From NCBI GenBank assembly GCA_009773355.1, contig WRPG01000013.1, forward strand, positions 1-64,000: a stretch of DNA of 64,000 bases, in the 5' to 3' direction. Of this stretch, positions 20,137 through 48,027 are shown in pieces; position 1 is the stretch's first letter, and each line of letters opens with the position of its first letter. The stretch comes from Limisphaerales bacterium. GTDB taxonomy: Bacteria; Verrucomicrobiota; Verrucomicrobiia; Limisphaerales; SXTU01. The position numbers and the translations under genes are program-made. The notes beneath the pieces are model-generated. The model did no database searches. It was not told where the DNA came from and saw nothing but the letters and a program-made list of their open reading frames with translations.

Positions 20137-23058
<2,922 letters not shown>

Positions 23059-39291: not shown

Positions 39292-39804
39292 GCCACAAAG
39301 AGGCACAAGAGGCGCAAAAAAGGAAAACTGCCATGAGCACGCCAACCAAAGATCCCGTCTTTCAGCTCTGCGATGCCGTGCGGGAGACTAGCTTCGCGCT
39401 ACACAAGTATCTTCGCCACGGCCATGTGGAGAAGGTGTATCAAAACGGCCTGCTCCATCGCCTCCGCAAACAGGGCCTCATCGCCGAAGCCGAAGTGCCG
39501 CTCCAAGTCCGCGACGAAGACGGCACGGTGCTCGGCGATTTCTTTGCCGACCTGTTGGTGCAGAAGGAGTTGCTCGTCGAGCTGAAGGCGGTGAAGCAAC
39601 TCACGGACGAGCACATCGCCCAAGTCCTCGGCTATATGCGCGCCTCCGGCATTGAGCACGCGCTGCTCATAAACTTCGGCGGCGCGCGGCTCGAAATCCG
39701 CAAGTTTGTCCTCAACGACGCCTTCCGCGCCGAAACGACGGCTGCCCCAAAGGCCAAGTCCTTCTTGTCTCTCCTTTTTGCGCCTCTTTGCGCCTCTTTG
39801 TGGC
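39292..39804. mobile_element. GxxExxY cassette bounded by inverted repeats
   Basis: Left end 39292-39324 and right end 39772-39804 are complementary (core GCCACAAAGAGGC.CAA, then AGGCGCAAAAA) with small indels. They enclose one gene and separate the small lipoprotein gene from cusA, so the element splits an otherwise compact efflux operon. The right end also encodes the C-terminal residues of the GxxExxY protein. Mobility is inferred from the ends and from the gene-less relatives at 35436 and, in another sequence family, 5683. Confidence 0.7.
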
Positions 39805-39809
39805 AATGA
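39333..39809 (+). CDS. GxxExxY protein (PD-(D/E)XK nuclease-like)
   Basis: A 158-residue protein of the GxxExxY family, named for a motif seen here in modified form as RHGHVEKVYQNGL (H-x-x-E-x-x-Y). The nuclease-like core follows: a strand with GDFFADLLV and then LLVELKAVKQL, matching D...E-x-K of PD-(D/E)XK enzymes, and QVLGYMRASG. The family is widespread in Verrucomicrobia, Planctomycetes and Bacteroidetes with unproven function. The last ~20 residues (FLSLLFAPLCASLWQ) derive from the flanking inverted repeat rather than from the conserved domain. Activity on DNA is inferred from fold only. Confidence 0.9.
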   Translation: MSTPTKDPVFQLCDAVRETSFALHKYLRHGHVEKVYQNGLLHRLRKQGLIAEAEVPLQVRDEDGTVLGDFFADLLVQKELLVELKAVKQLTDEHIAQVLGYMRASGIEHALLINFGGARLEIRKFVLNDAFRAETTAAPKAKSFLSLLFAPLCASLWQ

Positions 39810-39828
39810 GTCTTCTCCTTCGCGGCCC

Positions 39829-42800
39829 ATGATTAACCGCCTCATCGAATGGTCCCTGCGGAACCGCTTCCTCGTGGTGTGCGGCGTGTTCTTCCTCATC
39901 GCGTTCGGCACGCGCGCGCTGTTCCGCACGCCGGTGGACGCCATCCCGGACCTGTCAGAAAACCAGGTCATCGTGTTCGCGGATTGGGCCGGGCGCTCGC
40001 CGCAGGAGGTCGAGGACCAGGTCACGTATCCGCTCTCCGTCGGGCTGCAAGGGCTGGCGGGCGTGAAGACCGTGCGCGCGAACTCGATGTTTGGCTTCAC
40101 GCTGCTGACCATCATTTTCGAGGAACGCGTGGACAACTACTTCGCCCGCACGCGCGTGCTGGAGCGGCTGAACCTCCTCGCAGCGCAGCTCCCCGCCGGC
40201 GTCGTCCCCCAGCTCGGCCCGGACGCCACGGGCCTTGGCTGGGTCTATCAGTATTACCTCCACGTTGACCCCGCGCACGCGCACAACTCCAAACCCGAAA
40301 CTCCAAACTCGAAACCTCAGAGCGGCTCCTACGACCTCGGCCAGCTCCGCGCCCTCCAGGACTGGTTCATCCGCTATCAGCTCAACGCCGTGCAGGGCGT
40401 CGCGGAAGTCGCGAGCATCGGCGGCTTCGTGCGGCAGTATCAAATCGAGGTCAGCTCGCTCAAAATGCGCGCGCGCAAGGTCACGCTGAAGGACGTGATG
40501 GATGCCGTCGGCGCGAGCAACCTCAACGTGGGCGGCAAGGTCATCGAGGAAAACGGTATGGAATTCGTCGTGCGCGGGCTGGGCCTCGTGCAGTCGCTAG
40601 CGGACTTGGAGAACATCGTGCTGATGGAGCGCGCCGGTATTCCGGTTTACCTCAAGGACGTGGCCACCGTGCAAATCGGCGGCGACTTCCGGCGCGGCAC
40701 GCTGGACGTGGACGGCCGCGAAGTGGTTGGCGGCATCGTCGTGATGCGCAACGGCGAGAACGCGCTCGCGACCATCAACCGCGTGAAGGAAAAAATCCGC
40801 GCCATCCAGCCGAGCCTCCCGCCCGGCGTCACCATCAAGTCCTTCTACGACCGCGCGGAACTCATTGAGCGCACCATTGACACGCTCAAGCACGCGCTCG
40901 CCGAGGAAATCCTCCTCGTCACGCTCGCGCACATCATCTTCCTCTGGCACTTCCGCAGCATCCTCATCGTCACTGTGCCGTTGCCGCTTTCGATTCTCGT
41001 GTCGTTCATCCTGATGGAGAAGTTCGGCATCAGCTCGAACATCATGTCGCTCTCCGGCATCGCCATCGCCATCGGCGTGCTCGTGGACGCCGGCATCGTG
41101 ATGACGGAGAACGTGATTCGACACTGTGAGCGTGCGGAGGAGGAGAAGGGGAAGAAAGTAATTAGTGGGGGAGTAATTAGTAATCAGCCTTCAGGCGGAG
41201 GAGCGCCGGTCTCTGACCCGGCGTTAAGCGCGGCCGCACAACCCAATGCCGGGTCGGAGACCGGTGCTCCGAACTCAGCGGCGGCTTCAACGCCACCCAC
41301 GGCCCCACTAATTACTAATCACTCTTCCTCCCGCCTCACCGCCGAGGAAACCTGGCAAGTCGTCCTCACCTCCGCCCAACAAGTCGGCCGGCCCATCTTC
41401 TTCGCGATGGTCATCATCATTCTCGCGTTCCTGCCGGTGTTCGCGCTGTCGGGGCAGGAGGGCAAGCTGTTCCACCCGCTCGCGTTCACGAAGACCTTCG
41501 CGATGATTGGCTCCACCATTCTCGCGGTGACCATCGTGCCCGCACTGTGCTCGTTCCTCGTGCGCGGGCCGTTCCACTCCGAGGACCGCAACTGGGTGAT
41601 GCGCGTGCTGCTGGCGATTTACGACCCGCTGCTGGACCTCGCGCTGCGCTGGCGCAAGACCGTGATGGCGGGCGCGGCGGTGTTGCTGGCGTTCGCACTG
41701 GCCATTGCGTTTGGCTTGCCCAAGCCGGTGATGCTGTGGCTCGCGAAGACCACGACCGGACAAACCGTTGAAACGGTTCGTCCTCCGGCGGCGGCTGCCG
41801 ACACCCGACTGAAGTCGGGTGCTACTGAGAGTTCAGCTCACGCCAGCCACGGTGCAGCCGCGCCGGCTTCACTGAACACTGACCCACTGAATACTGAACA
41901 CTCCGCCCGCCTCCTCACCGACTTCGCCGCGCGCCACCCGCGCTTCACCAAACTCTTCACCGGTTTCGGCAAGGACTTCATGCCCACGCTCAACGAAGGC
42001 TCGCTCCTCTTCATGCCCGTGCTGCTGCCGAGCACGTCGCTCACCGAGGTGAAACGCGTCATGTCGTGGCAGGACCGCGTCATCCGCAGCCTGCCGGAGG
42101 TCGAGAGCGTCGGCGGCAAGCTGGGCCGCTCCGAGACCGCCACCGACCCCGCGCCCGTCGAGATGATTGAGACCACCATCATGCTCAAGCCGGAGTGGCT
42201 GCCCACGAACCGCACTTATCTCGGCTTCATCAAAATCCCCACCGTCTATCGCAACCCTGCGTGGCGGCCCAACTCCACGAAGGAAACGCTCATCGCCGAA
42301 CTCACCGAGAAACTCGCGAACGTCCCCGGCTACGTGCCCGGTTTTTTGCAACCCATCGAGAACCGCATCCTCATGCTCTCCACCGGCATCCGCGCGCAGC
42401 TCGGCGTGAAGATTCTCGGCGGGTCGCTCGATGACTTGCAGCGGAAGGCCTTTGAAGTCGAGCGCGTCGTGCGTGAAGTGCCAGGCGCGGTGGGCGTCGC
42501 GCCCAGCCGCGTGCAGGGCAAGCCGTATCTCGAAGTCGAAGTCAACCGCGTGGCGATGGCGCGCTTCGGCCTGCGCGCGCAGGACGTGCTCGACGCCGTC
42601 GAGACCGGCCTTGGCGGCAAGGTGATTTCCACCACGTATCAAGCCGCCGAGCGCATGGACCCGCGCGAGCGCACCGGCATCCAAGTGCGTTTGCAACGCG
42701 AGGAACGCGACGACCTCGAACGCCTCGGTGACGTGCTCGTCGCCACGCCCAGCGGCAAGCACATCCCGCTCGGCCAGCTCGCGACCATTCGCCGCGCGAC

Positions 42801-43530
42801 TGGTCCGAGCGAGATTGCGAGCGAGAACGGCCGCCTCCGTGTCTTCGTGCAGGCGAATGTTTCGGATCGCGACCTCACCGGCTTTGTCGAGGACGTGAAG
42901 CGTCGGGTGGAGAAGGAAATTGCCCCCACGTTGCCGCCCGGCATGACCATCGAATACAGCGGCGAATACGAGAACCTCGTGCGCGCGCAGCAGACGCTCT
43001 TTTACATCTTCCCGGCGACGCTGCTCATCATCTTCCTGCTGCTCTACATGGTCTATCACTCGGCGAAGGAGGCGGCGCACGTCATCCTCGCCGTGCCCTT
43101 CGCGTTGACGGGCGGCGTCTTCCTGCAATACCTGCTGGGCTATAACTTCAGCGTCAGCGTGTGGGTGGGCTACATCGCGCTCTTCGGCACGGCCATCCAG
43201 ACAGGTGTGGTGATGGTCGTTTACTTGGAGGAGATGGTGGCGAAGAAACAAGCCGCGTGCGCCGCCGCCGGCCAGCCCTTCACGCGCGACGACCTCGTGC
43301 AAGCCATCAAGGACGGCGCGCGCCTGCGCCTGCGCCCGAAGGTGATGACCGTCGCCACCATCGTGGCCAGCCTGCTGCCCATCATGTGGAGCCACCGCCC
43401 CGGCAGCGAAGTGATGCAACCACTCGCGACCCCCGTCATCGGCGGCATGGTCAGCAGCCTCCTGCACATCCTCGTGGTCACGCCGGTGATCTTCGCCATC
43501 CTGCGGGAGAGGGAGTTGAAGACGAAGTAA
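39829..43530 (+). CDS. cusA: Heavy-metal efflux RND transporter CusA/CzcA family
   Basis: A 1233-residue inner-membrane pump driven by protons. HME-RND landmarks: NRFLVVCGVFFLIAFGTRAL (TM1), DLSENQVIVFADWAGRSP, GLQGLAGVKTVRANSMFGF, the TM4 motif GIAIAIGVLVDAGIVMTENV and the C-terminal half with LPPGMTIEYSGEYENLVRAQ. It is ~190 residues longer than CusA of E. coli. Much of the excess lies in repeat-derived insertions: residues ~153-162, ~441-500 (in the TM4-TM5 cytosolic region) and ~645-690. With the adaptor and TolC-like protein it would form a tripartite Cu/Ag or Zn/Co/Cd efflux system. The final ~32 codons are duplicated at 44190. Confidence 0.95.
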   Translation: MINRLIEWSLRNRFLVVCGVFFLIAFGTRALFRTPVDAIPDLSENQVIVFADWAGRSPQEVEDQVTYPLSVGLQGLAGVKTVRANSMFGFTLLTIIFEERVDNYFARTRVLERLNLLAAQLPAGVVPQLGPDATGLGWVYQYYLHVDPAHAHNSKPETPNSKPQSGSYDLGQLRALQDWFIRYQLNAVQGVAEVASIGGFVRQYQIEVSSLKMRARKVTLKDVMDAVGASNLNVGGKVIEENGMEFVVRGLGLVQSLADLENIVLMERAGIPVYLKDVATVQIGGDFRRGTLDVDGREVVGGIVVMRNGENALATINRVKEKIRAIQPSLPPGVTIKSFYDRAELIERTIDTLKHALAEEILLVTLAHIIFLWHFRSILIVTVPLPLSILVSFILMEKFGISSNIMSLSGIAIAIGVLVDAGIVMTENVIRHCERAEEEKGKKVISGGVISNQPSGGGAPVSDPALSAAAQPNAGSETGAPNSAAASTPPTAPLITNHSSSRLTAEETWQVVLTSAQQVGRPIFFAMVIIILAFLPVFALSGQEGKLFHPLAFTKTFAMIGSTILAVTIVPALCSFLVRGPFHSEDRNWVMRVLLAIYDPLLDLALRWRKTVMAGAAVLLAFALAIAFGLPKPVMLWLAKTTTGQTVETVRPPAAAADTRLKSGATESSAHASHGAAAPASLNTDPLNTEHSARLLTDFAARHPRFTKLFTGFGKDFMPTLNEGSLLFMPVLLPSTSLTEVKRVMSWQDRVIRSLPEVESVGGKLGRSETATDPAPVEMIETTIMLKPEWLPTNRTYLGFIKIPTVYRNPAWRPNSTKETLIAELTEKLANVPGYVPGFLQPIENRILMLSTGIRAQLGVKILGGSLDDLQRKAFEVERVVREVPGAVGVAPSRVQGKPYLEVEVNRVAMARFGLRAQDVLDAVETGLGGKVISTTYQAAERMDPRERTGIQVRLQREERDDLERLGDVLVATPSGKHIPLGQLATIRRATGPSEIASENGRLRVFVQANVSDRDLTGFVEDVKRRVEKEIAPTLPPGMTIEYSGEYENLVRAQQTLFYIFPATLLIIFLLLYMVYHSAKEAAHVILAVPFALTGGVFLQYLLGYNFSVSVWVGYIALFGTAIQTGVVMVVYLEEMVAKKQAACAAAGQPFTRDDLVQAIKDGARLRLRPKVMTVATIVASLLPIMWSHRPGSEVMQPLATPVIGGMVSSLLHILVVTPVIFAILRERELKTK
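40287..40314. repeat. 4 x 7 bp array in cusA
   Basis: Words CTCCAAA, CCCGAAA, CTCCAAA, CTCGAAA, in frame within a periplasmic loop of the first half. Confidence 0.93.
41158..41321. repeat. Nested repeat insertion in cusA: heptamer arms around a palindrome
   Basis: Outer arms are GTAATTA/GTAATCA words (41158-41186) and their complement CTAATTA, CTAATCA (41308-41321). Inside is a palindrome with arms 41200-41222 and 41248-41270 (core CGGTCTC.GACCCGGC), of the same family as 30243-30309. The whole ~165 bp is read in frame. Confidence 0.92.
41763..41899. repeat. Third repeat cluster in cusA
   Basis: Contains AACCGTTGAAACGGTT (41763-41778), ACCCGACTGAAGTCGGGT (41803-41820) and a heptamer run ACTGAAC, ACTGACCC, ACTGAAT, ACTGAAC (41871-41899), all in frame between two conserved parts of the transporter. 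Confidence 0.88.
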
Positions 43531-43533
43531 CTG

Positions 43534-43944
43534 CTACGGAGTGAAGAACCGATTGAAGCCCTTCGCGCGCAAACCGGCCTTCAACTCCTCGTCCTCCGTC
43601 CACAACTGGCCGTCGAGATGCAGCGTCAGCGCGACAAACGCGGTGTCCTTCTCGTCCACGTCCCGGCACAACTGGTGGGCTTCCATCCAGGTTCCCAGCG
43701 GGATGTTCGACTCGTTGATGAATTCGATGCGGGCCACGAGCACTTGCAGGGCTTCAAGTAGTTCCTCCTCGGTCAAGCGCGAGGCGTGGAGGAGTCGTTC
43801 CTTGTGCTTGAAAAGCTCGACGAACAGGAAGCGCGGGCTGTGGAGCCGCAGCCGGGACGTGGGATCCATCTGGTTCCGCAGCTCACCGCCGCCGGAGGCG
43901 AGTGCCCGGAATGCCAAGTTGGTGTCCACCACCACCGGCTTCAC
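43534..43944 (-). CDS. PIN-domain toxin (VapC-like)
   Basis: A 136-residue PIN-domain protein, read from a GTG (43944) that overlaps the antitoxin stop. Acidic active-site residues are visible: VVVDTNLAFRAL (first Asp), FLFVELFKHK (Glu), DVDEKDTAFVALTL (Asp) and QLWTEDEEL (last acidic). PIN toxins are Mg-dependent RNases that cleave tRNA or rRNA. It ends 4 bp from the cusA stop on the opposite strand. The pair with the upstream small ORF and its position between two copies of the cusA 3' end suggest insertion as a module. Confidence 0.85.
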   Translation of the reverse strand: MKPVVVDTNLAFRALASGGGELRNQMDPTSRLRLHSPRFLFVELFKHKERLLHASRLTEEELLEALQVLVARIEFINESNIPLGTWMEAHQLCRDVDEKDTAFVALTLHLDGQLWTEDEELKAGLRAKGFNRFFTP

Positions 43945-44159
43945 GAGCCGGGCGGGATGAAGCGATCCCGGTTCGCCGCCCACCAACCGGTCTTGGATTC
44001 CTCCGCCATCCGGTCAGCCTCTGTCACGGTGAGCTGGCTCCTGCGGGCGATGGCTTCCAGCCGCAACCAGTCGAGCATGGCGTTCAGGCGGTCCATCGGC
44101 ACCTCGTCATGGGGGAAGGTGACGTGCGTTGTCCCATTGGCACTCTCGACCGTAATCAT
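43941..44159 (-). CDS. Putative antitoxin for the PIN toxin
   Basis: A 72-residue protein starting at ATG 44159 with [20 protein letters not shown], then [20 protein letters not shown] and a C-terminal [19 protein letters not shown]. The size, the 4-bp GTGA overlap with the toxin start and the order antitoxin-toxin fit a VapB-type role. The N-terminal DNA-binding fold is not clear, so the antitoxin family is left open. Confidence 0.72.
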
Positions 44160-44189
44160 GGCCGGAAAGTAGGCGTCTGTGTCGCAAGC

Positions 44190-44294
44190 GTCAACGGCGG
44201 CATGGTGAGCAGCCTCCTGCACATCCTCGTGGTCACGCCGGTCAGCTTCGCGATGCTGCGGGAGCGGGAGTTGAAGACACCAGTGGCGAATTAG
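44190..44294 (+). pseudogene. Duplicated cusA 3' end beyond the toxin-antitoxin pair
   Basis: This 105-bp stretch repeats the last ~32 codons of cusA (43435-43530) with about seven differences in 84 comparable bases, and ends in its own stop (TAG, 44292-44294). In the cusA frame it reads [20 protein letters not shown] and a tail with [10 protein letters not shown]. It has no start and is not a gene by itself. It may be the original cusA end, displaced by the insertion, or the end of a deleted second cusA. Confidence 0.85.
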
Positions 44295-44356
44295 TTTGTT
44301 TCCCAGCCCGACCGCTTATGGCAGCTTGCCCGCGAGCAGCCAACAGCCACTTCACT

Positions 44357-45097
44357 ATGCAGCATGACTCTACCCCGCGCCGCCGGCACGGGTTCACCCT
44401 GATCGAACTGCTCGTCGTCATCGCCATCATCGCGATCCTGGCGGGGATGCTCTTGCCGGCGTTGTCCAAGGCGAAGGCCAAGGCGCACGGCATCAAGTGT
44501 GTGAACAGCACGAAGCAAATTCTGCTGGGCGCGAAAATCTATGCGGGTGACAACGGCGACCGGCTGCCGCCCAGTCACACGCCGGGGACGACGGGCTTGA
44601 GCTGGGCAGACGTCATGCTGACCTACGTCGGGTCGAACACGAACGTGTTCGTCTGCCCCAGCGCGCCCAACCGCGGCACGGAGCGCCTGTGGTCGAACGC
44701 CAAGGTGAAGAATCACTACATGGCGAACATTGACCTCGGTGCGCGGCAGCTTGGCTTTGGCGACACCGGCGTGGCGAAGCCCGCCTCGACGGTCTATCTC
44801 TGCGATGGCGGCACGCTGGCGGTGGACTCGCCCAACGGCAACGTGGCGGTGACGCCGACTTCCATCTACAAGCCGGGTTGCTGGATTCTGATCCGGCCCG
44901 CCGGCAGCGAGGCGTTCGGAACCTTGCAGGCCACGACGACGACCTCACCGAACTCACCCGACTGGGGCGGCCCGCATCTGCGCCACGCCAAGCGCAGCAA
45001 CGTGGGCTTCGTGGACGGCCATGTGGAGACGATGGAATCCGCGAAGTGGTATTACTCGAACACGCCCTGGACCGACCCGGCCATCGGCGGCCAGTGA
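44357..45097 (+). CDS. Type IV pilin-like protein with H-X9-DG C-terminus
   Basis: A 246-residue protein starting at ATG 44357. The N-terminus is a class III prepilin signal: RRRHG then [20 protein letters not shown], cleaved by prepilin peptidase and N-methylated at Phe. The C-terminal motif [12 protein letters not shown] fits the H-X9-DG domain (DUF1559-like) that is hugely expanded in Verrucomicrobia and Planctomycetes. The role is in pseudopilus-like or extracellular structures, otherwise unknown. Confidence 0.92.
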
Positions 45098-45136: not shown

Positions 45137-45964
45137 CTACTGCTTCAGCGCCTTGTTCAGGTTGTCGAGCTGGGTCTGGGCCTTGTCGCGGAGGGTCTGC
45201 GAATCGGCGTTCTTGACGGCCTGCTCCAGCAGTTTCTTCGCCTCCGGGTAGTCCTTCAACACCCCGTCCTCGGTGATGTAGCGGATCGCGAGATCGAAGG
45301 CCGCCTGGGCATCGCCACCCTCCGCGCGCTTGGTCTGCGACTCGATGACCTTGCGCGTCGTTTCCTCGGCGGACTGGGACGGTTTGGGCGCAGGCGTGGA
45401 GGCGAGCTTGCCGGTGGAAGCCTTGGTGGTTCGCGGCCCGCCATTGGTGCCAGCGCGGCTGCCACCGGCGCCGGCACCGGTGCCGGCGCTCATGCTGGCG
45501 GATGTGCCCTGCTTCGCGGCTTGGGCGCGGGCGCGGGCGGCCAGCTCGGGGCTGATCGCGTTTTTTCCATCAATGCCGGTGAGCGAATAGAAGTAGTTCA
45601 GATCGTCGTCGCTCCTCCACGCCTTGTCCGGGCCGGCGGAGAGGACGCTGAAACCGTTCTTGGCCGCGTCCACGCTGAGGCGATACTCGGTGCCCCACGG
45701 GTCCTTGGATTTGTCGCGCGTTTCCTTGCCGTCTTTTTGGCGCAGGTTTTCCTTGAGCCAGCCGCCGAAGTTTTCGATCGGCAAATCCCGCTCATCCACG
45801 AAGTCCCGCGCCAGCGCCTCGGCGATGCCCTGCATCTCGACGCCGGAGGTGGCGGCGACCTGCACCTTGCCGATGACGCCCAGGCTCTTCTTGAGCGCGT
45901 CACTGTTCATGGTCACGACGCCGGCGGCGGCGGCGAGCGGCAGGATTTTCAGGAGCACGCTCAC
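45137..45964 (-). CDS. GspG-like C-terminal domain protein with a Sel1/TPR-like tail
   Basis: A 275-residue protein from a GTG start overlapping the upstream stop (GTGA). Residues ~80-115 carry the pseudopilin-like segment DPWGTEYRLSV and FSVLSAGPDKAWRSDDDL, as in GspG major pseudopilins, but the prepilin N-terminal signal is missing; instead there is only a short hydrophobic start. A Gly/Ala/Thr linker follows, then a helical repeat region (AAFDLAIRYITEDGVLKDYPEAKKLLEQAV). It likely works with the membrane cNMP protein encoded just upstream. Function unknown. Confidence 0.75.
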   Translation of the reverse strand: MSVLLKILPLAAAAGVVTMNSDALKKSLGVIGKVQVAATSGVEMQGIAEALARDFVDERDLPIENFGGWLKENLRQKDGKETRDKSKDPWGTEYRLSVDAAKNGFSVLSAGPDKAWRSDDDLNYFYSLTGIDGKNAISPELAARARAQAAKQGTSASMSAGTGAGAGGSRAGTNGGPRTTKASTGKLASTPAPKPSQSAEETTRKVIESQTKRAEGGDAQAAFDLAIRYITEDGVLKDYPEAKKLLEQAVKNADSQTLRDKAQTQLDNLNKALKQ

Positions 45965-47901
45965 TTCGCGGCCCCCTTCTTCTTGAGCGCGACGACGCGC
46001 TTGTCCGAGGTGCGCTCAATGGCCAGGCCGGTGAGGAAATCGCGGCTGATGAGCTGGAGGAAGCTGTCCTTGTCGAGCTTGAGGCACCGGCTGTTGCGCA
46101 GCGCGGCCACGTTGGCGGAGGCGGCGGTGCCCTGCAGCAGGCTGATCTCGCCGCAGAAGTCGCCGGGGCCGAGCGTGGCGACCTGCGCGCCGGCCTTGCG
46201 CACGCCGAACTCGCCCTCATAGACGATGTAGAAGAACTCGTTGTGCCGGCCCTCGCTGAGAACCTCCACGCCGGCGGTGCAGTCCTGGAAGGCAAACTGC
46301 CCCGCGACCTTCATCAACGCGTGTGGCGGCCAGTCCGCGAAGATGGAGTTGCGTCGCAGGAACGCGCAGACCTGCACGACCTCCTGGATTTTCTTCGCGC
46401 CGAGCGTCGAGAGCAGCAGCCGGTCGAAGTCCGCCCGCTTGAGCGCGAACAGCTCCGTTTCCTCCAGCGCCACGACCGAGCTGGTGCGGGGCACCTGTTG
46501 CAGCAGGGCGATCTCGCCGAAGACCTCGCCGCGCCCGAGCTGCGCCACGGGGCGGAGCGCGCCGGCCTCGTCCTCCTTCTGCACCTCCACGCGGCCGTTG
46601 TGGAGGACGAACATGAGGTCGCCCTTGTCGCGCTCGCGGATGATGACCGCGCCGCGCTTCACGGTGAAGAACTCCATCGCGTCGGCCACCGAGCGGGTTT
46701 CCGTTTCGGACAATTGTGAAAACAGCAGCGTGCCGGAGAGGAACTTCACCGTCTCGTCCGGGCCGGGACGCTGCACGCCATCGAAGCTTTTTTGCAGCCT
46801 CGCCTCGGCGGACGAGAGCTGCGGCGCCAGCAGGCGATGGCAGGTCTTGCCTACGAGCCACAGGCCATAAACCAGCGGGGCCACGACGACGAGCGCGAGC
46901 AGAAAGATGACGGTTTGCGCGCCCGGCTCGAAGAGGACGTTCGTGTTGACGCTCGCCTGCCGCGTCATCAGCTCGGACGCGAAGCGGAACACCGCGCCGA
47001 GCCAGAGCACCGCCCAGGTCGAAAGCCCGATGAAGTAATGCTCCTCCTTGAGCGACTCCTTCCAGCTCAACATGTGCGCCAGGAACTTCTCCCGCAGGAA
47101 CGTGTCCGCGCAGTGCGGCAGCTCGTGCTGCTTGCGGAAGAGCGCGTGCAGCAGCGTGTGCGCCGGCGAGCCGCCGAACGGCGACGCCAGCAGCAGCGCC
47201 GTCACATAGCCCGCCAGGAAGACCGGCGTCGAGTCCAGCGCCCAGCCGACCAGCGCGACGGCGAACGGCGCGGCCAGCATCTGCAACGCGGTCAGCACCT
47301 CCACCTTGCGCCCGCCCATGAGCGCGTCGCGCGTGTCCACGGAGAAGAACGGCAGCACCAGGTCCAGCCGCACCTCGGGCCGATACACCTCGCGGCCCAG
47401 CCCGCTGAGGACCGCGCCCGCGAGCACGTTCGCGAGGCTGAGGCCCAGCGACACGGACAGCAGCGTGAGGAACCAGCCGGCGGGATTGGGAAGCAACGAC
47501 ACCTCGGATACGGTCACAGCGGAGGCACCTGCCCCGATGAGGCATATCGCCAAGGCCAGTGCACCGGTCGGCGTGCAACGGACGTTCCAGCGGCGGCCCT
47601 TCGCTTGAGCGCCGGGCGGCTCCGTGTCGCCTTCGTGGAGGAAGCCCTTGGCCTGCGCCGCCAGCACAAGGTCATAGAAGGCGCGAATCTTGGGATGCCC
47701 TTCCTGGTGCAGCAAGCCTTGCAAGACCTCCTGCACCGTTTGCTCGCCGTCGAACTCCGCCAGGATGGCCTCCTGCTGCGCGGTCAGGGCCAGATACTCG
47801 CCTTGATTGGTCTGCTTGAGCAGCCGCGTGCCGTCGGGCAGCTCCTTCCGCTCCAAGGCCAGCGTGAGCCGGAGCTTCTGGTCGTTGAGTGCGGGCGTCA
47901 T
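45961..47901 (-). CDS. Membrane protein: PqqD-like start, degenerate M50-like core, two cNMP-binding domains
   Basis: A 646-residue protein. Residues ~10-90 look PqqD-like (QGEYLALTAQQEAILAEFDG). Six or so membrane segments (~112-130, 143-168, 205-250, 290-310, 330-355) resemble the M50-type membrane core found with PqqD domains, but where HExxH should be there is NVLAGAVLSG (158-167), followed by the family-like VDTRDALMG (188-196). The metal site is therefore absent. Two cyclic-nucleotide-binding domains end the protein: GRGEVFGEIALLQQVPRTSS (first) and LGPGDFCGEISLLQGTAASA (second). Probably a nucleotide-responsive membrane sensor or transport/secretion component rather than a protease. 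Confidence 0.8.
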   Translation of the reverse strand: MTPALNDQKLRLTLALERKELPDGTRLLKQTNQGEYLALTAQQEAILAEFDGEQTVQEVLQGLLHQEGHPKIRAFYDLVLAAQAKGFLHEGDTEPPGAQAKGRRWNVRCTPTGALALAICLIGAGASAVTVSEVSLLPNPAGWFLTLLSVSLGLSLANVLAGAVLSGLGREVYRPEVRLDLVLPFFSVDTRDALMGGRKVEVLTALQMLAAPFAVALVGWALDSTPVFLAGYVTALLLASPFGGSPAHTLLHALFRKQHELPHCADTFLREKFLAHMLSWKESLKEEHYFIGLSTWAVLWLGAVFRFASELMTRQASVNTNVLFEPGAQTVIFLLALVVVAPLVYGLWLVGKTCHRLLAPQLSSAEARLQKSFDGVQRPGPDETVKFLSGTLLFSQLSETETRSVADAMEFFTVKRGAVIIRERDKGDLMFVLHNGRVEVQKEDEAGALRPVAQLGRGEVFGEIALLQQVPRTSSVVALEETELFALKRADFDRLLLSTLGAKKIQEVVQVCAFLRRNSIFADWPPHALMKVAGQFAFQDCTAGVEVLSEGRHNEFFYIVYEGEFGVRKAGAQVATLGPGDFCGEISLLQGTAASANVAALRNSRCLKLDKDSFLQLISRDFLTGLAIERTSDKRVVALKKKGAAK

Positions 47902-47959
47902 GGTTGGAGGACGCCGGAGTTCGTAGCAAATCCCGCCGGGTCAGGCAAGGCGGAAGCAA

Positions 47960-48027
47960 GTAGCTCGACATTCCAATGTCGAGACCAAGGGTTCGTGAAC
48001 AGACTCGACATTGGAATGTCGAGCCAC
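47960..48027. repeat. Intergenic palindromic repeat (GTAGCTCGACATTCC type)
   Basis: Arms 47960-47983 and 48004-48027 are complementary at 23 of 24 positions, and each arm contains its own hairpin CTCGACATT.CC.AATGTCGAG. The right arm is nearly identical to 22288-22311 in the DUF1549 gene. It fills the gap between dnaN and the cNMP protein gene. Confidence 0.93.

Follow-up and report, generated by a model that had tools for sequence, protein, structure and literature searches.

The genes considered here lie in a 64,000-nucleotide stretch of DNA (the window; positions 1 to 64,000 of the forward strand of contig WRPG01000013.1) from a Limisphaerales bacterium (GenBank assembly GCA_009773355.1; 6.16 Mb in 162 contigs). 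They raise the question of what a membrane protein that resembles a peptide-handling protease, has no recognisable active site and carries two cyclic-nucleotide-binding (cNMP) domains might do with a translationally coupled partner related to the pseudopilin GspG. Gene A (45961-47901, minus strand, ATG start, 646 aa) was studied through its open reading frame, Pfam, profile comparison, an AlphaFold2 model and hydropathy, and gene B (45137-45964, minus strand, GTG start, 275 aa) through its open reading frame, Pfam, AlphaFold2 with Foldseek, and alignment. Both frames lie where the original prediction, made from the sequence alone, had placed them, and the coupling it described is a four-base overlap: the 3′ end of A and the start of B share GTGA, in which GTG is the start codon of B.

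A and B stay next to each other in a broad group of Verrucomicrobiota. A was found in all 11 genomes of the genus (76-100% identity) and in 20 of the 196 genomes sampled from the order, a patchy occurrence; at the level of the class, 22 of 286 genomes searched by profile have it, other orders included. Co-occurrence of the two genes in other genomes, a point raised by the original prediction, proved to be conserved, in the order and beyond it. Among 22 order-level genomes collected, B comes next after A in all 21 whose contig is long enough to tell, with the four-base overlap every time. Outside the order the same overlap was seen in family f63 (three genomes) and in genome G201; the spacing is a 7-base gap in G348 and a 93-base gap in G508, a member of another class. 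Both genes are under purifying selection, with pairwise ratios of nonsynonymous to synonymous substitution rates of 0.13-0.29 for A and 0.15-0.42 for B. No other gene was found to be conserved beside the pair across families, so the pair itself is the unit, and a search for plasmid homologues gave none.

A also occurs without B, in families f72, f89 and f91 (14 cases, one of which, G401, is too close to a contig end to tell). A maximum-likelihood tree was built from 38 A proteins, 24 in B-carrying rows (including G119, whose contig stops before B) and 14 in B-less rows. A single branch with 100/100 support parts the B-carrying proteins from their B-less sister group, a pattern that a single gain or a single loss of B explains.

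The ancestry of the N-terminal half of A was traced with a comparison set of related-genome proteins that combine a weak Pfam PqqD match with a long frame. These are PqqD-M50-HlyD proteins (L150-L160, from several related genomes), putative site-2 proteases of peptide export with the motifs HE[FL][AG]H and NPL..DGYY intact. A shares with them the order of PqqD-like domain and M50 core: the profile of A residues 1-385 is collinear with them from the N-domain through to the DG region (hhalign P 1.1e-9, against 0.02-0.05 for reversed and 0.07-0.7 for block-shuffled controls). The N-domain of A alone matches the N-domain of the active PqqD-M50 proteins with P 2.6e-6 (0.1 for the reversed control); for the match of the membrane part by itself to these proteins, P is 2.2e-4. 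The descent from a PqqD-M50 protein that had been proposed thus holds by profile comparison, not by Pfam: a Pfam scan of 18 N-terminal halves of A proteins matched neither PqqD (PF05402) nor M50, and a PDB sequence search with this half of A gave only chance matches (designed proteins, photosystem subunits). The putative PqqD-like winged-helix N-domain covers residues 1-90 (47632-47901, minus strand; profile match and model) and the pseudo-M50 membrane core residues 106-361 (46819-47586, minus strand), with about six helices and a beta-hairpin after the helix expected to carry HExxH.

In the hhalign register HEFGH falls over A157-N158-V-L-A161 (47419-47433, minus strand) and the DG aspartate over P246. 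The replacement of HExxH by NVLAG, as first claimed, is therefore right as to the loss and wrong as to the register, the aligned residues being ANVLA at 157-161, one residue earlier. His, Glu and His at 157, 158 and 161 occur in 0 of 38 homologues, and a search among the same 38 for an intact HExxH at the M50 position found none. Position 246, corresponding to the third zinc ligand (the Asp of N-P-x(4)-D-G), is Pro in 27/38 and Asp in 0/38. What A still has in common with the M50 proteins is a glycine and a hairpin that follow the lost motif, together with a P-x-F-x-V-D-x-R-D-A stretch. A HELPH string further on (residues 259-263; 47113-47127, minus strand) was weighed as a possible hidden active site but dismissed as a chance occurrence outside the M50 site, since only two of the 38 homologues have it.

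The AlphaFold2 model of A (mean predicted local distance difference test score, pLDDT, 78; predicted template modelling score, pTM, 0.56; residues 255-285 and the domain orientation are unreliable) has a winged-helix-like N-domain (strands 9-39, helices 41-84, strand 88-90), a long helix that spans the place of the lost motif and leads into the beta-hairpin, and about six membrane helices; an even count would place both termini in the cytoplasm. The core of A thus looks like a pseudo-protease descended from a PqqD-linked M50 membrane domain, with the zinc and catalytic residues gone. PqqD-M50-HlyD proteins have HExxH, NP..DG and a HlyD-like C-terminal half, whereas A has none of these and carries two cNMP domains instead.

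These two domains (PF00027, E 6.3e-39) are the only Pfam matches in A, and cNMP fold matches of the model reach Z 19.5. Their presence agrees with the original prediction, which had them added to the protease; a complete cyclic-nucleotide site is found only in the first, and the same architecture is common to relatives without B. CNB-A (about residues 381-501; 46399-46761, minus strand) has a canonical phosphate-binding cassette, VFGEIALLQQVPRTSSV, with the ribose Glu (E463) and the phosphate Arg (R472) both present in 32 of the 38 homologues. In CNB-B (about residues 505-640; 45982-46389, minus strand) the cassette FCGEISLLQGTAASANV keeps the ribose Glu (E585), present in 38/38, and has Ala at the phosphate Arg position (A594), Arg occurring in 0/38. 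CNB-B is never lost; CNB-A is degenerate or missing in 6/38, and its full cassette is found in every B-carrying A apart from that of G201. With Glu and Arg in CNB-A and Arg never in CNB-B, CNB-A is likely a cyclic-nucleotide sensor, and CNB-B appears to be an unusual, strictly kept domain. Twelve class III cyclase matches in the genome make a ligand for A plausible.

The best sequence and fold matches of these domains are the regulatory subunit of PKA and PKG, which have tandem domains like A; A differs as a membrane protein without a kinase partner and with the canonical site in CNB-A only. Kinetoplastid PKA binds nucleosides; in it the phosphate Arg has been lost and a new Glu stands two positions beyond the ribose Glu (PMC10959531). 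CNB-B resembles it in the lost Arg and retained ribose Glu; nucleoside binding of this type was nevertheless rejected, as the second Glu is absent (S587 in CNB-B; the equivalent residue of CNB-A is A465) and with it the nucleoside signature. The NCBIfam model TIGR03896 (bacteriocin-type transport-associated protein) also has two cNMP domains, but its match is weak (64 bits against a cut-off of 161) and limited essentially to the cNMP part of A, and no bacteriocin transport genes are conserved near A.

B consists of an N-terminal membrane helix, a GspG-like head, a linker and a Sel1-type C-domain. Residues 83-116 give a T2SSG match just under the cut-off (E 4e-4), and the GspG signature DxWG...SAGPDxxWxTxDD is kept: within the DPWG and calcium-loop motifs (residues 88-121; 45602-45703, minus strand), D88, W90, G91, G111, P112, D113 and D120 are identical in 26/26 B proteins. 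We take these conserved residues to be the equivalents of the calcium ligands in PulG. B is modelled (mean pLDDT 82, pTM 0.49) as a short, hydrophobic N-helix and a long second one, a sheet of three strands, and a C-domain made of helices. Its best Foldseek rows are major pseudopilins of the GspG type and Sel1 proteins, at modest E-values; for GspG structures the probability reaches 1.00, though E is 1e-2. The C-domain (about residues 199-275; 45140-45370, minus strand) contains a single weak PF08238 (Sel1) repeat at residues 219-252 (18.9 bits against a cut-off of 30.7), and Sel1 structures are among the best Foldseek and VIA rows. It is restricted to the order of the window; elsewhere B ends in a short tail.

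A class III signal is defined by Gly-1 and Glu5 (PMC4471445, PMC10191384), and the leader Gly is critical for prepilin processing (PMC4471445). Such a signal peptide (Gly-1, hydrophobic tract, Glu5) is absent from the first 45 residues of B in all 26 proteins, in keeping with the GspG-like partner without a prepilin signal that had been described. B shares with GspG/PulG, the major pseudopilin of type II secretion, the lollipop fold and the calcium-loop residues, and differs in lacking the class III signal peptide and Glu5 and in its added Sel1 or proline-rich tail. Judged by these features, B is a membrane-anchored GspG relative apparently no longer able to form a filament. Its short N-terminal helix is conserved, with P9 and A12, while linker and C-domain vary, as expected for a partner-binding helix. 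A separate pseudopilin gene lies downstream of B and convergent to it (44318-45097, plus strand); it has a good N-methylation motif, a DUF1559 end and, unlike B, a prepilin signal.

The M50 (site-2 protease) membrane domain grips single transmembrane helices of its clients. With rather less than even confidence, we propose that the pseudo-protease core of A holds the helix of B in an inner-membrane complex controlled by cyclic nucleotide at CNB-A, with a topology, a direction of signalling and a downstream target that we infer. In this model, the simplest to draw on all the conserved parts, A and B would be two subunits of one complex, in which the protease-derived core of A would grip the N-terminal helix of B without cutting it, making B a permanent client. 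The GspG-like, calcium-binding head would sit on its membrane helix neither processed nor polymerised, probably facing the periplasm. Cyclic nucleotide bound at the cytoplasmic CNB-A would alter the grip on the helix, and the altered grip would change external binding by the head and, where present, the Sel1 domain; CNB-B would serve as a conserved coupling domain, not as a second sensor. A precedent for A holding B is given by iRhoms, inactive rhomboids thought to bind clients via transmembrane helices (PMC6451368). These and the Derlins, also rhomboid pseudoproteases, resemble A in joining an inactive intramembrane protease fold to new regulatory domains, and membrane clients are thought to be their targets (PMC6451368); they belong to another protease clan, are eukaryotic and have no cNMP domains, and client binding by A is a suggestion.

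Several observations weigh against this proposal. The A homologue of G201 (L096:7781-9436) has no CNB-A, yet retains CNB-B and B, so cyclic-nucleotide control is not universal. A in the sister group occurs without B and must therefore have a role that does not require B. The M50 relationship of A is seen by profile comparison, with no Pfam match; all the Foldseek and VIA-align rows shown for full-length A are cNMP domains. The N-terminal helix of B is short and may, in some members, act as a signal peptide, and both the physical A-B complex and its ligand are predictions. The G201 protein is also a natural experiment on the domain that the pairing requires.

The head of B, which keeps all the calcium-loop residues, would also suit a role beside a machine for type II secretion or type 4 filaments. 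The pair would be its accessory: B as a non-assembling pseudopilin would cap, block or dock on the filament platform and A would set this by cyclic nucleotide. In favour of this account, the genome has about a dozen matches to secretion or pilus ATPases, and Glu5-less pilin subunits are able to cap filaments (PMC10191384). We nevertheless consider it unlikely: no machine gene is conserved next to the pair, such machines are far more widespread than A-B, and B is without the leader Gly critical for processing (PMC4471445).

The N-domain of A directs attention instead to peptide handling, since it matches the PqqD-like domain of M50 proteins that also have HlyD-like export parts. It might bind a leader peptide or protein segment that the core moves or presents, as in the PqqD-M50-HlyD proteins, B being cargo or receiver. 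The HlyD part is absent from A, however, the Pfam PqqD family does not match it, and neither a precursor peptide nor a modifying enzyme or transporter is conserved in the neighbourhood; we regard this role as improbable. We give an equally small chance to A being a membrane scaffold that senses another signal through its core or N-domain, its cNMP domains being mainly structural or binding a ligand other than a cyclic nucleotide. That the never-lost domain is CNB-B, without the phosphate Arg throughout, and that CNB-A is the one found degenerate or missing would fit such a scaffold, but the full CNB-A cassette in all B-carrying A proteins except that of G201 points to selection on the site.

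Upstream of A, on the same strand, is dnaN, and a likely dedicated promoter of A, TTGCCT-16 bases-TACGAA (47921-47948, minus strand), was found by eye between the two; similar hexamers and spacing were seen, also by eye, upstream of A in several genomes of the genus. Paired 20-bp palindromes, CTCGACATT(CC/GG)AATGTCGAG, about 40 bp apart, occur at 47964-48023 and again at 22242-22307 of the window. The palindrome between dnaN and A was rejected as an operator, being a dispersed repeat that is absent upstream of A in relatives; its 18-bp core has 139 copies in the genome, frequently paired, and it is possibly a transposon-derived element or one like the repetitive extragenic palindromic (REP) elements.

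Beyond B, a PIN_2-domain protein (E 2e-26) and a small overlapping upstream frame (43534-43986 and 43941-44222, minus strand) lie directly behind a cusA-like resistance-nodulation-division (RND) gene and are likely a toxin-antitoxin pair. Across this module from the RND gene (39706-43530), a coding stretch at 44200-44294 (plus strand) repeats the 3′ end of that gene, as if the module had arrived together with a duplication of it. In other genomes, a conserved cyclase neighbour of A-B was sought and rejected, the sole case being an FHA protein of one genome, G237 (L093:10787-11731), whose cyclase domain is below threshold (PF00211, E 0.009); this protein follows A-B and is itself followed by a Sel1-repeat gene. 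In family f50 (L044:11667-13730, and the same place in L047) the gene after the pair encodes a membrane protein with HEYSH, by eye like an M48 (HtpX-type) protease.

Each domain type of A and B is already known. Their combination is without description in the open-access papers searched, and no system with this pair was found there, as the original prediction had supposed (subscription papers lay outside the search). Among the relatives of rhomboids, inactive ones that regulate membrane clients are well known; the papers searched yielded no comparable member of the site-2 protease clan, inactive and equipped with a sensor for a second messenger. That A would be the first such site-2-protease-derived pseudo-protease to act as a cyclic-nucleotide receptor, permanently holding a pseudopilin-derived ectodomain and passing a cytoplasmic signal outward across the inner membrane, is a doubtful proposal. 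If true, it would provide a bacterial case in which an intramembrane protease, now inactive, has become a receptor. A would then be a candidate cyclic-nucleotide effector in Verrucomicrobiota, in a genome with its dozen cyclase matches, and B would be a pilin subunit removed from the filament and retained as a membrane-bound head.
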